Shown: in pieces, positions 39,240 through 64,000 of the stretch
Layout of the letters: each line of letters begins with the position of its first letter
How positions within the stretch are numbered: position 1 is the first letter of the stretch
Source: Fidelibacterota bacterium
GTDB taxonomy: Bacteria; Fidelibacterota; Marinisomatia; Marinisomatales; SCKK01
Length of the DNA: 64,000 bases
NCBI GenBank assembly: GCA_004124475.1
Contig: SCKK01000010.1
Coordinates: 1-64,000, forward strand
Reading direction: 5' to 3'
The notes under the pieces: generated by a model
What the model saw: only the letters and a program-made list of their open reading frames with translations
Databases searched by the model: none
What the model was told of the DNA's origin: nothing
Made by a program: the position numbers and the translations under genes

Positions 39240-39686
39240 ATGTCAACCTACACGCAATTGTTGTATCATATCATATTTTCTACCATGAATAGGAAATGTT
39301 CTCTTTTAGAAAAAAGGCAGGAGGATTTGTTCAAGTATATCTGGGGAATTATCAGGAATAAGAAATGTCATTTATACCGAATCAATGGTATGGAAGATCA
39401 CATCCACATTGCCACAGATATACGACCTGCTATTGCTCTTTCTGATTTCGTGAAAGACATAAAGGTTGCATCTCACGATTGGATTAAAAGGGAGAAGATA
39501 TTCCCACATTTCGAGGCATGGCAAAAAGGATACGCTACTTTCACCTTTTCATATCGTGATAAGGATGGTCTTATCAATTACATAAGGGATCAAAAGGAGC
39601 ACCACAAGAAAACAACGTACAAAGAGGAACTCAAAAAACTACTTGTGGAATGGGGTGTTGAATTCGATGAAAAATATTTATTGTGA
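39240..39686 (+). CDS. IS200-like Y1 transposase (REP-associated tyrosine transposase type)
   Basis: 148 residues. The HUH signature is visible as EDHIHIATDI (H-hydrophobic-H) after GM, the N-terminus YTQLLYHIIFSTMNRKCSL fits PF01797, and the likely nucleophile Tyr lies in LINYIRDQKEHHKK. It cleaves single-stranded hairpins at specific sites and joins DNA ends. The gene is surrounded by the REP-like hairpins upstream and downstream, which are candidate substrates, and lacks the partner tnpB gene of IS605 elements. It is intact in frame. Confidence 0.85.
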   Translation: MSTYTQLLYHIIFSTMNRKCSLLEKRQEDLFKYIWGIIRNKKCHLYRINGMEDHIHIATDIRPAIALSDFVKDIKVASHDWIKREKIFPHFEAWQKGYATFTFSYRDKDGLINYIRDQKEHHKKTTYKEELKKLLVEWGVEFDEKYLL

Positions 39687-60767: not shown

Positions 60768-61244
60768 ATGAACGAAACCACAAAAAAACAAACACTTCGT
60801 ATGATTGAAAATGGTGTTTTTGTGATCACAGCCAAGGCCTTTAATCGATGTTTTGGTTCTACGGTGACATGGTTGACTCAAACGTCTTTTAAACCCCCTT
60901 TAATTATAGTGGCGCTAAAAGTGGGATCAGGAATTTACAGTGCGGTAAAAGAGTCTCGATGCTTTGCTATTCATTTGCTATCTACAGAGCAAGAATCTTT
61001 TGCGGCTGATTTTTTCAAATCTTCAGAAAGTGACGACTTTCTCATCAATGGACATCCCTATAAATTGAGCGAAAAAGGTAACCCGCTTTTAGATGATCCC
61101 GTTTCAATCATTGAGTGTACGGTCAATAAAATTATCGAGGATGGAGATCATCATATTGTTGTTGGAGAGGTTGTAAATACCCAGGTTAAAGTAAAAACCT
61201 CTGTGCTCTCTTTAAGAGATACCAGCTGGACTTATGGAGGATAA
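60768..61244 (+). CDS. Flavin reductase-like (FMN-binding split barrel) protein
   Basis: 158 residues. FVITAKAFNRCFGSTVTWLT and SFKPPLIIVALKVGSGI match the flavin reductase-like domain, with DDPVSIIECTVNKIIEDGDH and HHIVVGEVVN following. It probably binds FMN and transfers electrons to a partner oxygenase or acceptor. No partner is adjacent; the next gene is an MBL-fold hydrolase after 229 bp. Start ATG 60768 is shortly after the remnant. Confidence 0.85.
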   Translation: MNETTKKQTLRMIENGVFVITAKAFNRCFGSTVTWLTQTSFKPPLIIVALKVGSGIYSAVKESRCFAIHLLSTEQESFAADFFKSSESDDFLINGHPYKLSEKGNPLLDDPVSIIECTVNKIIEDGDHHIVVGEVVNTQVKVKTSVLSLRDTSWTYGG

Positions 61245-61327
61245 TGCGTTTTCAACCCTTGTATTATATGGAATGCCCCAATTTTCTGAAATATTCCCCG
61301 ATATATCTCTCAACATTGATAAGCCCC

Positions 61328-61343
61328 TCCCGAAGCTTCGGGA
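61328..61343. repeat. Palindrome tcccgaagcttcggga
   Basis: Perfect 16-bp palindrome in the gap before the MBL hydrolase gene. It is identical in core to 43291-43308. A related half-site atcagctgacggacgg follows at about 61413. Nothing coding is seen in 61245-61473. Confidence 0.75.
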
Positions 61344-61473
61344 TAAATATGATTCTTTATAATCAAACACGTTAAATCACATTATCTAACGGGGCAAGCT
61401 ATCAATCAGCTGACGGACGGGACAAGAATTTGGCGACTAAAGGGATAAGTTGAGTAAAATAGAATAAATCTGT

Positions 61474-62319
61474 ATGAGAATTGGAAGATATCAGGTTCAT
61501 TCACTTTTAACGAGTTATTTTTCGTTGGATGGCGGTTCCATGTTTGGCTCGATTCCGAAAACGCTATGGGAAAAGAAAATCCAATCTGATGAAAAAAACA
61601 GAATTCCATTATGTACCCGCTCTCTATTTTTGGTGGATGATGATCGAAGGATTATTGTAGATACTGGGAATGGAGATAAGTGGGATGACAAGTACCGTGC
61701 AATTTATAATGTGGACACTCAATCTGTAAATCTGGAATCTTCGTTAAACTCTTTAGGGTACAAAGTTGATGATATTACAGATATAATCTGTTCCCATCTC
61801 CATTTTGATCATGCCGGTGGGAACACGAAAATTGACGATCATGGTAAAGTTGTTCCAACATTTCCTTACGCGACTTATTGGATACAAAAAACAAACTTGG
61901 AATTAGCTAATCACTCATCGGAAAAAGACCGGGCAAGTTATCTTTCTCACAATTGGGAAGTATTGGTGGAAAATGGAATGATAGAGTGTGTTGACGGAAC
62001 TGAATCATATCTGCCTGACATCGAAATATTTGTCTCAAACGGGCATACAACAGGTCAACAACACCTCATTTTGAGAGATGAAAAAACTACAATGTTCTTT
62101 GCAGGTGATCTATTCCCAACAATGGCTCATATTCCTATCCCGTGGGTAATGGCTTATGACCTTCGACCTCTTCAAACGATCCGGGAAAAAAAGTCTCTAC
62201 TACAAAAGATTGTTAAAGAAGATTGGCTTGTCTTTTTTGAGCACGACCGGGAATGTGAAGCGGCGAATGTTAAATTTGATGGGAAATCATTTACAATAGG
62301 TCAAAAGTTCAAGATTTAG
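61474..62319 (+). CDS. MBL-fold metallo-hydrolase
   Basis: 281 residues with a beta-lactamase-fold core: SHLHFDHAGG (HxHxDH metal motif), GHTTGQQHLI, FAGDLFPTMAHIP, and a late EHDRECE. The N-terminus GRYQVHSLLTSYFSLDGGSM is like the quorum-quenching or general hydrolase subfamilies; substrate unknown. The stop TAG (62317-62319) lies inside the left inverted repeat of a MITE-like element, so the original C-terminus may have been altered. Confidence 0.88.
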   Translation: MRIGRYQVHSLLTSYFSLDGGSMFGSIPKTLWEKKIQSDEKNRIPLCTRSLFLVDDDRRIIVDTGNGDKWDDKYRAIYNVDTQSVNLESSLNSLGYKVDDITDIICSHLHFDHAGGNTKIDDHGKVVPTFPYATYWIQKTNLELANHSSEKDRASYLSHNWEVLVENGMIECVDGTESYLPDIEIFVSNGHTTGQQHLILRDEKTTMFFAGDLFPTMAHIPIPWVMAYDLRPLQTIREKKSLLQKIVKEDWLVFFEHDRECEAANVKFDGKSFTIGQKFKI

Positions 62320-62457
62320 TAATAGTTCACCACCATAATGAAAAAGTAACATAAGAGTAACACCTAGCTAAAGCAGGGTGTTACTCTTATAGGAATATTT
62401 AACGTTACGAACAAAAATTATTATCAAGAATCATTGCACGGTGAACTATTACTAAAT
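62314..62457. mobile_element. MITE-like element with perfect 18-bp terminal inverted repeats
   Basis: Ends atttagtaatagttcacc (62314-62331) and ggtgaactattactaaat (62440-62457) are exact inverse complements. Inside is a strong hairpin with 14-bp arms (ataagagtaacacc at 62351-62364, ggtgttactcttat at 62377-62390) and a 12-base loop. The element is 144 bp, non-coding and sits between two genes. No target-site duplication is obvious. It could also act as the transcription end of the MBL gene. Confidence 0.7.
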
Positions 62458-62472
62458 TTGAAAAGGGGAAAT

Positions 62473-62835
62473 ATGGCTGAATTTGTAGTATATGTTAAAG
62501 ATTTTGAATTAGGAACAAAGATTGCTGAGGTGGGAGCAGACTTGAATCGTGAAGTAATATTCCCTGATTCATTTCATTTTACTGAGGGCATAATTGGTGG
62601 AGAAACAGAACTGGTTATTATAGACCTTGATGAAAATCAGAAAATTACTGAAGAGTTGATTTTAGAAATTCGTTCATCTCATCCTCGACTTCCGATTGTG
62701 GGATTTTTTTCAAGTGTACAAAAACGCCGACACAAAAAAGTAAAAAATTTGGGTTGTACCTGGGTACTTCCACGTTCTTCATTTGTAAAAAACCTTCCTA
62801 CATTGATCGAAAGGAGAATGAAGCCGAATGATTGA
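62473..62835 (+). CDS. Receiver-like small protein upstream of nth
   Basis: 120 residues. The frame opens at 62434, but ATG 62473 follows aggggaaat and starts MAEFVVYVKDFELG, so it is preferred. The rest resembles a response-regulator receiver-like alpha/beta fold: ELVIIDLDENQK (near-D53 strand), HPRLPIVGFFSSVQKRR and CTWVLPRSSFVKNL (end helix). The Asp is not in a typical phospho-acceptor setting. The 3' end overlaps nth by 8 bases. Function unknown, possibly regulatory. Confidence 0.6.
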   Translation: MAEFVVYVKDFELGTKIAEVGADLNREVIFPDSFHFTEGIIGGETELVIIDLDENQKITEELILEIRSSHPRLPIVGFFSSVQKRRHKKVKNLGCTWVLPRSSFVKNLPTLIERRMKPND

Positions 62836-63484
62836 GGTACAGTCTGAGACAATGGTACAAAAAAAAGAGAGGATGAAAGCCGTCATCAAACGGTTGCACA
62901 TGGAATATCCCAAGGCAGAGTGCAGTCTCACTTATATAACACCTCAACAGCTTTTGGTTTCTACGATCTTATCCGCCCAGTGTACCGATGAGCGAGTTAA
63001 TCAAGTGACTCCCTTTTTATTTAAGAAATATCCTTCTGTCAAAGATTTTGCTTATACAAATGTTGAGGAGCTTGCAAAAGATATCCATTCTTGTGGTTAT
63101 CACAATCAAAAGGCTCGTGCTATTAAAGGTGCCAGTCTTGTGATCTGGGAGGAGTTTGGAGGAACGGTTCCAAACACGATGGAGGACCTTATTAAACTTC
63201 CCGGGGTGGGAAGAAAAACAGCGAATTGTGTTTTGGGTACAGCGTTTGGGATTCCAAGTGTTGTGATAGATACTCACATGGTAAGAATAATGGGATTATT
63301 AGGTTTTACAGATTCGAAAAATCCGGAAAAGATTGAACGGGAGATCATGGAAATTACACCTACAGAAGAGTGGATAAATCTTACTCACCTCATTATTGAT
63401 CACGGAAGAGAAATTTGTATTGCACGTCGTCCAAAATGCTCTGATTGTCGCCTGAACGATATTTGTCCTTCATCTTTAGTATAA
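62828..63484 (+). CDS. nth: Endonuclease III
   Basis: Bifunctional DNA glycosylase/AP lyase for oxidised pyrimidines. Helix-hairpin-helix LPGVGRKTANCVL contains the catalytic Lys, VIDTHM holds the catalytic Asp, and the C-terminal C-x6-C-x2-C-x5-C of CIARRPKCSDCRLNDIC is the 4Fe-4S site. 218 residues is typical. Start ATG 62828 overlaps the receiver-like gene. Confidence 0.95.
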   Translation: MIEVQSETMVQKKERMKAVIKRLHMEYPKAECSLTYITPQQLLVSTILSAQCTDERVNQVTPFLFKKYPSVKDFAYTNVEELAKDIHSCGYHNQKARAIKGASLVIWEEFGGTVPNTMEDLIKLPGVGRKTANCVLGTAFGIPSVVIDTHMVRIMGLLGFTDSKNPEKIEREIMEITPTEEWINLTHLIIDHGREICIARRPKCSDCRLNDICPSSLV

Positions 63485-63557
63485 TATTAGAAACAAATAT
63501 TTTAAGCTTGTATAATCAGGTTACCACCCGTTGCCTCATAATAAAAGGTAACCGTAA

Positions 63558-64000
63558 TTAAGTAATAAGAGCAGGGATTTTTTGATTAAGTTGTGGTTGT
63601 GTTTTGTTAAGAATGTTCACCACTTTTTCCTTTACTTTTTGTTGTAATAAAAAGGGGTTCAGGGTTTCAAAGATAGCTGTTAGTTCCTGTTTTGTTTTCT
63701 TTGTTATATGCGATGATTCCATCAATCTTAGATAGGGAGTTTTCGGTGGATCATACCGTTTGATGGTTTTAGAACCCAAACGTTGTTTTTGTATCAATTT
63801 GGATGAAGGGATAAAGAAATTCATAAGCAATCTCCACTCGGAAGTATACAAGTCATTGAGTTGATCTACCAGAGTAATATCATCAAAACGGTTATAACCT
63901 AAATATTGTCTTACAATGGTCCAGTTTTTCTCTTCAATATGAGCATTATCATTTTTGTGATATGGACGAGACCTAGTGTACTGCACAGGTCGTTTTCGGT
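63558..64000 (-). CDS. Integrase-core transposase, C-terminal part, cut off by window end
   Basis: The frame is open to the window edge, so the gene's 5' part lies beyond 64000. It reads TRSRPYHKNDNAHIEEKNWT (rve/DDE region, catalytic Glu in HIEEKN), then LGYNRFDD, LYTSEWRLLMNFFIPSSKL, KRYDPPKTPY, which is an integrase-type transposase of the IS481/ISNCY-like group (approximate assignment). The stop is at 63558-63560. The ggttacc...ggtaacc pair at 63520-63551 just outside could be a terminal inverted repeat. Confidence 0.75.
   Translation of the reverse strand, partial: RKRPVQYTRSRPYHKNDNAHIEEKNWTIVRQYLGYNRFDDITLVDQLNDLYTSEWRLLMNFFIPSSKLIQKQRLGSKTIKRYDPPKTPYLRLMESSHITKKTKQELTAIFETLNPFLLQQKVKEKVVNILNKTQPQLNQKIPALIT

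Follow-up and report, generated by a model that had tools for sequence, protein, structure and literature searches.

The window analyzed here is a stretch of 64,000 nucleotides from a 3.15-Mb assembly of 77 contigs (G000), which has one congener in our collection (G001). Toward its right-hand end, an MBL-fold hydrolase gene (61474 to 62319, + strand; recognized from its ORF and profile matches, YtnP-like and below the YtnP cut-off) is followed on the same strand by an ORF of 120 residues counted from its ATG (62473 to 62835), for which the profile search returned no Pfam or NCBIfam family. Between them lies a short element. The element proper spans 134 bp (62319 to 62452, + strand) and is bounded by 13-bp inverted repeats common to related elements at C13 and C44 in the same genome and at C25 and C38 in G001: GTAATAGTTCACC on the + strand at the left (62319 to 62331; IS66-like by comparison) and the same sequence on the − strand at the right (62440 to 62452), both found as inverted-repeat matches. 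Alignments with longer, Y1-carrying copies define a left outer arm (62332 to 62350), a right outer arm (62391 to 62439) and, between these two + strand segments, a 40-bp hairpin on the + strand (62351 to 62390) in which an IS200-like (Y1) cassette has its left and right ends joined at CACC(C). The hairpin arms (62351 to 62369 and 62372 to 62390) are 89% complementary and their outer 14 bp pair perfectly, as the first-pass annotation of this DNA had read them. Folded as single-stranded RNA, the element reaches −49.4 kcal/mol (z = −10.2; shuffle mean −17.4), a value that none of 200 shuffles matched, and the single Rfam match, to SurA, is below threshold (16.2 bits, the gathering score being 100). 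The absence of coding capacity noted earlier also holds; a TTG-start ORF at 62434 merely clips the right end and likely begins at the ATG at 62473.

The first-pass annotation gave the element perfect 18-bp inverted ends and a length of 144 bp. The two stretches in question (62314 to 62331 and 62440 to 62457) are indeed 100% complementary over 18 nt, but related copies have just 13 bp per end in common, so that the outer five bases on each side (62314 to 62318 and 62453 to 62457) are flank, 134 bp is the element proper and 18-bp ends are ruled out as the ends of the family. The complementarity of the five flanking bases can be chance: a run of at least five complementary bases occurs in 2 of 156 controls in which flanks were deliberately mispaired, and for that reason neither a palindromic target nor a TA duplication is adopted as the explanation of the window flanks (TTCAAGATTTA / TAAATTTGAA), whose match may be fortuitous.

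The stop codon of the MBL gene had been placed in the left end and described as supplied by the element. The TAG (62317 to 62319) does fall within the 18-bp arm, but only its G, which is the first base of the element, belongs to the 13-bp end; the first two bases are flank. In-frame TAA and TAG codons from the element follow as back-up stops. Because the element provides the G and the two stops behind it, the MBL protein is essentially unchanged (281 residues in the window versus 282 in G003). All eight other genomes in which the MBL gene was found have the next ORF on its downstream side, on the same contig and strand; in some of these another gene apparently intervenes, as judged by eye. In G003, the nearest comparison (64% protein identity), the two genes are 4 bp apart and no element is present, and in the window 153 bp separate them. 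The copy would have landed at or next to the MBL stop codon, ahead of a conserved neighbor gene, and the insertion is apparently harmless to both the MBL and the neighbor protein.

A sequence search returned three longer relatives in G000 (C44, C13 and C63), and relatives in one of 100 further genomes, the congener G001 (C25 and C34). Rather than being unique in its genome and present in every relative with the same gene end, the element thus has matches in 2 of 101 genomes, and it combines the attributes of a MITE: it is short (134 bp), has 13-bp terminal inverted repeats and no ORF of its own, and has related copies in its genome and in the congener. The copies with shared ends for which the first-pass annotation proposed a search do occur in both genomes, with 13 bp in common and not 18. 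Three of them, C44 (745 bp between ends), C63 and the congener's C25, contain an ORF of 144 to 156 residues that encodes a Y1 (IS200-like) transposase (PF01797, E = 5e-24; NF033573 above cut-off for C44). The ORF is gone from C13, which is 345 bp long; C34, shorter again, retains the right end only. C13 and C34 have small palindromic inserts in common, which suggests that a non-autonomous form has also spread. The Y1 ORF of C63 (L011, 1119 to 1589) contains two palindrome-like inserts, one of 27 nt and one of 9 nt, which leave the frame intact and resemble dispersed palindromes entering coding sequence. Short TCCCGAAGCTTCGGGA-type palindromes are also scattered in the window (28449, 41962, 43279, 47091 and 61315). 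The window also contains a second, diverged Y1 transposase gene (39243 to 39659, + strand; 26% identity) with CACCAACCCTGGAGGGGTTGAA-like repeats upstream; a 34-bp inverted repeat (341 to 374 and 2382 to 2415; 82% complementary, 2.07 kb between outer ends) that likely delimits a full insertion sequence; and an ORF running past the window end (63558 to 63998, − strand) with no Pfam or NCBIfam match, which by eye resembles the C-terminal region of an integrase-type transposase.

The pairing of a Y1 transposase with subterminal hairpins that characterizes IS200/IS605 elements is found in the longer copies only. Aligned with them, the window copy starts with the left outer arm and runs through the first 14 bases of the left cassette end directly into the right cassette hairpin, after which comes the right outer arm. 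CACC(C) is present at both ends of the Y1 cassette and the join in the window copy falls there, and the loss of the cassette may accordingly be put down to a deletion at a short direct repeat; by this alignment the window copy would be a Y1-carrying element minus most of its Y1 cassette. In the window copy the right arm of the hairpin (62377 to 62390) reads TTACTCTTA, where C44, C13 and C25 have CTATTCTTA or TTATTCTTA; the variant makes the window hairpin perfect and may be a templated correction within the palindrome. The 13-bp core end (at most one mismatch, 500 bases on each side) is present at none of 11 distant Y1 relatives (L027 to L037, from other MAGs, at 43 to 63% identity; L036 is cut by its contig) and at none of three other Y1 genes of G000, though the distant relatives carry the cassette hairpins. 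The 13-bp ends are therefore not part of the Y1 cassette. A laxer scan of the same 14 genes gave two matches, both rejected as lacking the core end: one lies inside a tandem repeat (L030), and the other has two mismatches and a 7/8 repeat (L033).

The same 13-bp ends also bound elements with a different gene, so that the family comprises Y1 elements, within the genus, and elements whose only gene encodes a GxxExxY protein, across the phylum and once in the congener. The pattern GTAATAGTTCACCAC occurs in 6 of the 245 phylum genomes searched, and the reversed-pattern control gave none among the matches listed. At C38 in G001, and in G214 and G221, such ends enclose elements of 466 to 527 bp that encode nothing besides a GxxExxY/PDDEXK_3 protein; deleted versions measure 316 bp (L101) and 159 bp (L240), and other copies have inserts or a broken ORF (L090, L092 and L242). 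The ORF is near-identical at two loci of two genomes (six synonymous and two nonsynonymous changes in 124 codons) and by eye keeps the D...ExK pattern. The GxxExxY family is present in 107 of 243 phylum genomes, including all five used in the duplication census below, and 30 other GxxExxY loci of the phylum showed neither such ends nor duplications in a scan that recovered 7 of 7 positive controls, which rules out that GxxExxY genes generally lie within such elements. Many of the phylum's GxxExxY genes (L116 to L145) are bordered on both sides by CCACAGAG-like or CCACAGAGACACAGAG-like degenerate repeats. A 15-mer scan of viral contigs returned 80 stretches, every one with a single match and none with a pair.

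Target duplications were counted in five genomes for 13 elements with both ends within two mismatches of the core. The count leaves aside end matches for which the stretch read contained no partner (those in L243, L244, L247, L099 and L100 lie at contig ends), most single matches with two mismatches, for which no surrounding sequence was retrieved, and C63 and C34, which are decayed or one-ended. Immediately outside the ends, 8-bp direct repeats agree at 8/8 bases in seven elements and at 7/8 in two, and four have none (the window copy, C13, L092 and L241); among the 156 mispaired controls, 8/8 was never reached and 7/8 was reached three times. For five loci we joined the flanks with one repeat copy and searched the same five genomes, obtaining continuous empty sites, each with one repeat copy at the join, for four of them: the Y1-carrying C44 is empty in G001, the GxxExxY-carrying C38 in G000, L096 in G219 and G220, and L101 in G219. 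The L101 query aligned to G220 in two pieces ∼306 bp apart, so this site is probably occupied there; the flanks of C25 had no match in G000. The C44 empty site reads CAAATATC, identical to the right-hand repeat of C44, and the single mismatch between its repeats is therefore likely a later change on the left. At the window copy itself, the flanks match at 5/8 bases, which 31 of the 156 mispaired controls equal or exceed. Nor was a close empty site found for it: searches of G001 with the MBL gene and with the next ORF gave no match, and G003 stands at 64% protein identity. The empty-site comparison proposed in the first-pass annotation therefore succeeds for relatives and not for the window copy, whose insertion is argued from them; its broader proposal of a small, non-autonomous element is supported by same-ended relatives in the genome and the congener, by the duplications of the family and by its empty sites.

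These data bear first on the proposal that the element arose from an IS200/IS605 element by simple internal deletion and is moved as a single strand by Y1 via the hairpins, which we consider unlikely. The proposal would accommodate the intact Y1 gene and the IS200-type left and right hairpins of the longer copies, the retention of both cassette ends in the window copy and the lack of a target duplication there, as that family predicts. IS200/IS605 elements are, however, described as having neither terminal inverted repeats (TIRs) nor target-site duplications (TSDs) (PMC3627910, in part), and the moving unit here has 13-bp TIRs and 8-bp TSDs. Its outer ends are missing from other Y1 relatives, bound GxxExxY elements as well, and are accompanied by 8-bp duplications and precise empty sites; at the level of the family, the proposal is already contradicted. 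TIRs, 8-bp TSDs and empty sites together thus make the moving unit one of TIR/TSD, DDE-like type, despite its Y1 gene.

For the enzyme behind such movement, the closest comparison is with IS66. ISDge4, an IS66 element of the ISBst12 group, is reported to have the ends GTGACTACTCAGCA/GTAACTGCTCAGCA and an 8-bp repeat (PMC12898284, in part). Among relatives of an IS66 gene of G230 (8 viral-contig loci and 6 of 25 plasmid matches listed), GTAAC-type inverted ends were found at 6/8 viral-contig and 5/6 plasmid loci, with GTTAC in part of L278 and in L281, and exact 8-bp repeats at 5/8 and 5/6, respectively. The resulting end consensus is GTAACTATTCAGC, with which GTAATAGTTCACC agrees at 9 of 13 positions; scored against the IS66 end profile, it was equaled by 46 of 400,000 random 13-mers. 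Its score of 7.6 is nevertheless below that of every IS66 end from which the profile was built (14 to 22), and three variant family ends reach only 0.7 to 1.2. The family core thus starts with GTAA, as IS66 ends do, though scoring below real ones, and the 8-bp duplication is present in the family, with empty sites, and not in the window copy. A PF03050 (IS66) gene was found in neither G000 nor G001; across 244 phylum genomes seven have one, and the carriers G214, G216 and G221 are not among them. The first-pass annotation had looked to a full-length transposon with the same ends; none with a cognate DDE transposase appeared among the matches with at most two mismatches whose surroundings were read in five genomes, MAGs being assemblies that may lack repeats. 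As PF03050 was not found, we do not file the family as a member of IS66 and call it IS66-like in its ends only. IS66-like mobilization in trans is our best guess, one toward which we lean; that the family moves in a DDE-type manner is far surer.

Two further proposals assign the movement elsewhere. One, which we regard as quite improbable, makes the 13-bp ends an exchangeable casing without a transposase that swaps Y1 and GxxExxY genes, the GxxExxY protein itself being perhaps the mobilizer; were it true, the ∼470-bp elements would be transposons driven by a PD-(D/E)XK nuclease alone. In the other, still harder to credit, the GxxExxY PD-(D/E)XK protein is a transposase of a new type that drives the mobility of the family, whether in cis or in trans. 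Its being the sole product of the full-length sister elements would fit, as would the conserved D...ExK pattern, the near-identity of the ORF at two loci and the spread of the protein family through the phylum, the five census genomes included. Against it stand the 30 other GxxExxY loci without ends or duplications, the Y1-type elements that have no GxxExxY gene and the resemblance of the ends to those of IS66; to our knowledge, moreover, there is no precedent for a GxxExxY protein acting as a transposase.

Least credible of all is that the structure is an ordinary 3′-end hairpin of the MBL gene, a terminator or mRNA stabilizer resembling the repeats by chance: a strong fold does lie directly behind the stop codon, and IS605 stem loops are reported at the 3′ ends of lipoprotein genes in Borrelia (PMC2775950, in part), but the proposal is mostly refuted by the absence of the element from the G003 junction, the lack of any match in 99 of 101 genomes, the near-identical arms at other loci and a search for G+C-rich hairpins with a U run that found no terminator-like site in 61200 to 63700, the window hairpin having no U run behind it, so that the terminator role suggested in the first-pass annotation is likewise unsupported.

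We therefore favor, with good confidence, the reading of the element as a MITE of a DDE-type family with 13-bp ends and 8-bp duplications, with a composite history and an IS66-like mobilizer acting in trans. An IS200-like cassette would have entered an element with 13-bp ends, and the composite would then have moved by its outer ends, as the empty site of the Y1-bearing C44 in G001 suggests. The window copy would later have lost most of the cassette at the CACC(C) repeat, leaving the hairpin. The mobilizing enzyme, probably IS66-like (single-ORF, ISBst12-type), would have acted in trans and would now be absent or unassembled.

The element is ordinary in kind and unusual in make-up. Its hairpin points to single-strand Y1 transposition and its ends, with the duplications and empty sites of its relatives, to a DDE-type mechanism, so classing such elements by hairpin alone would mislead. 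Some GxxExxY genes, members of a widespread family named in NCBIfam by its motif only, now have a mobile context with empty sites. Judged by title and the opening of the abstract, none of the papers listed on IS66-related MITEs, on GxxExxY elements or on insertion sequences of Marinimicrobia, PMC8934634 among them, describes such an element.

Among known systems, the single-ORF IS66 elements (ISBst12-type; ISDge4, ISGst1) resemble the family in ends that start with GTAA and have TTCA at positions 8 through 11 and in 8-bp duplications. Unlike them, the family elements have no DDE transposase, with none found in the carrier genomes, their ends score below the IS66 ends compared, and their cargo is Y1 or GxxExxY. 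With IS200/IS605 (Y1, HUH) and RAYT/REP systems, the longer copies share the PF01797/NF033573 gene and subterminal hairpins, the window hairpin being a remnant of such a cassette; the moving unit differs from IS200/IS605 in its TIRs and 8-bp duplications, and the RAYT model scores below its cut-off. GxxExxY/PDDEXK_3 genes (TIGR04256, PF13366) are the sole genes of the sister elements with the same ends, whereas 30 other phylum loci have no such ends. Like bacterial MITEs, the window element is short and noncoding, with inverted ends, several related copies and duplications in its relatives; it departs from them in that its interior is the scar of a second, unrelated type of element and in that its full-length relatives carry passenger genes in place of a cognate transposase.
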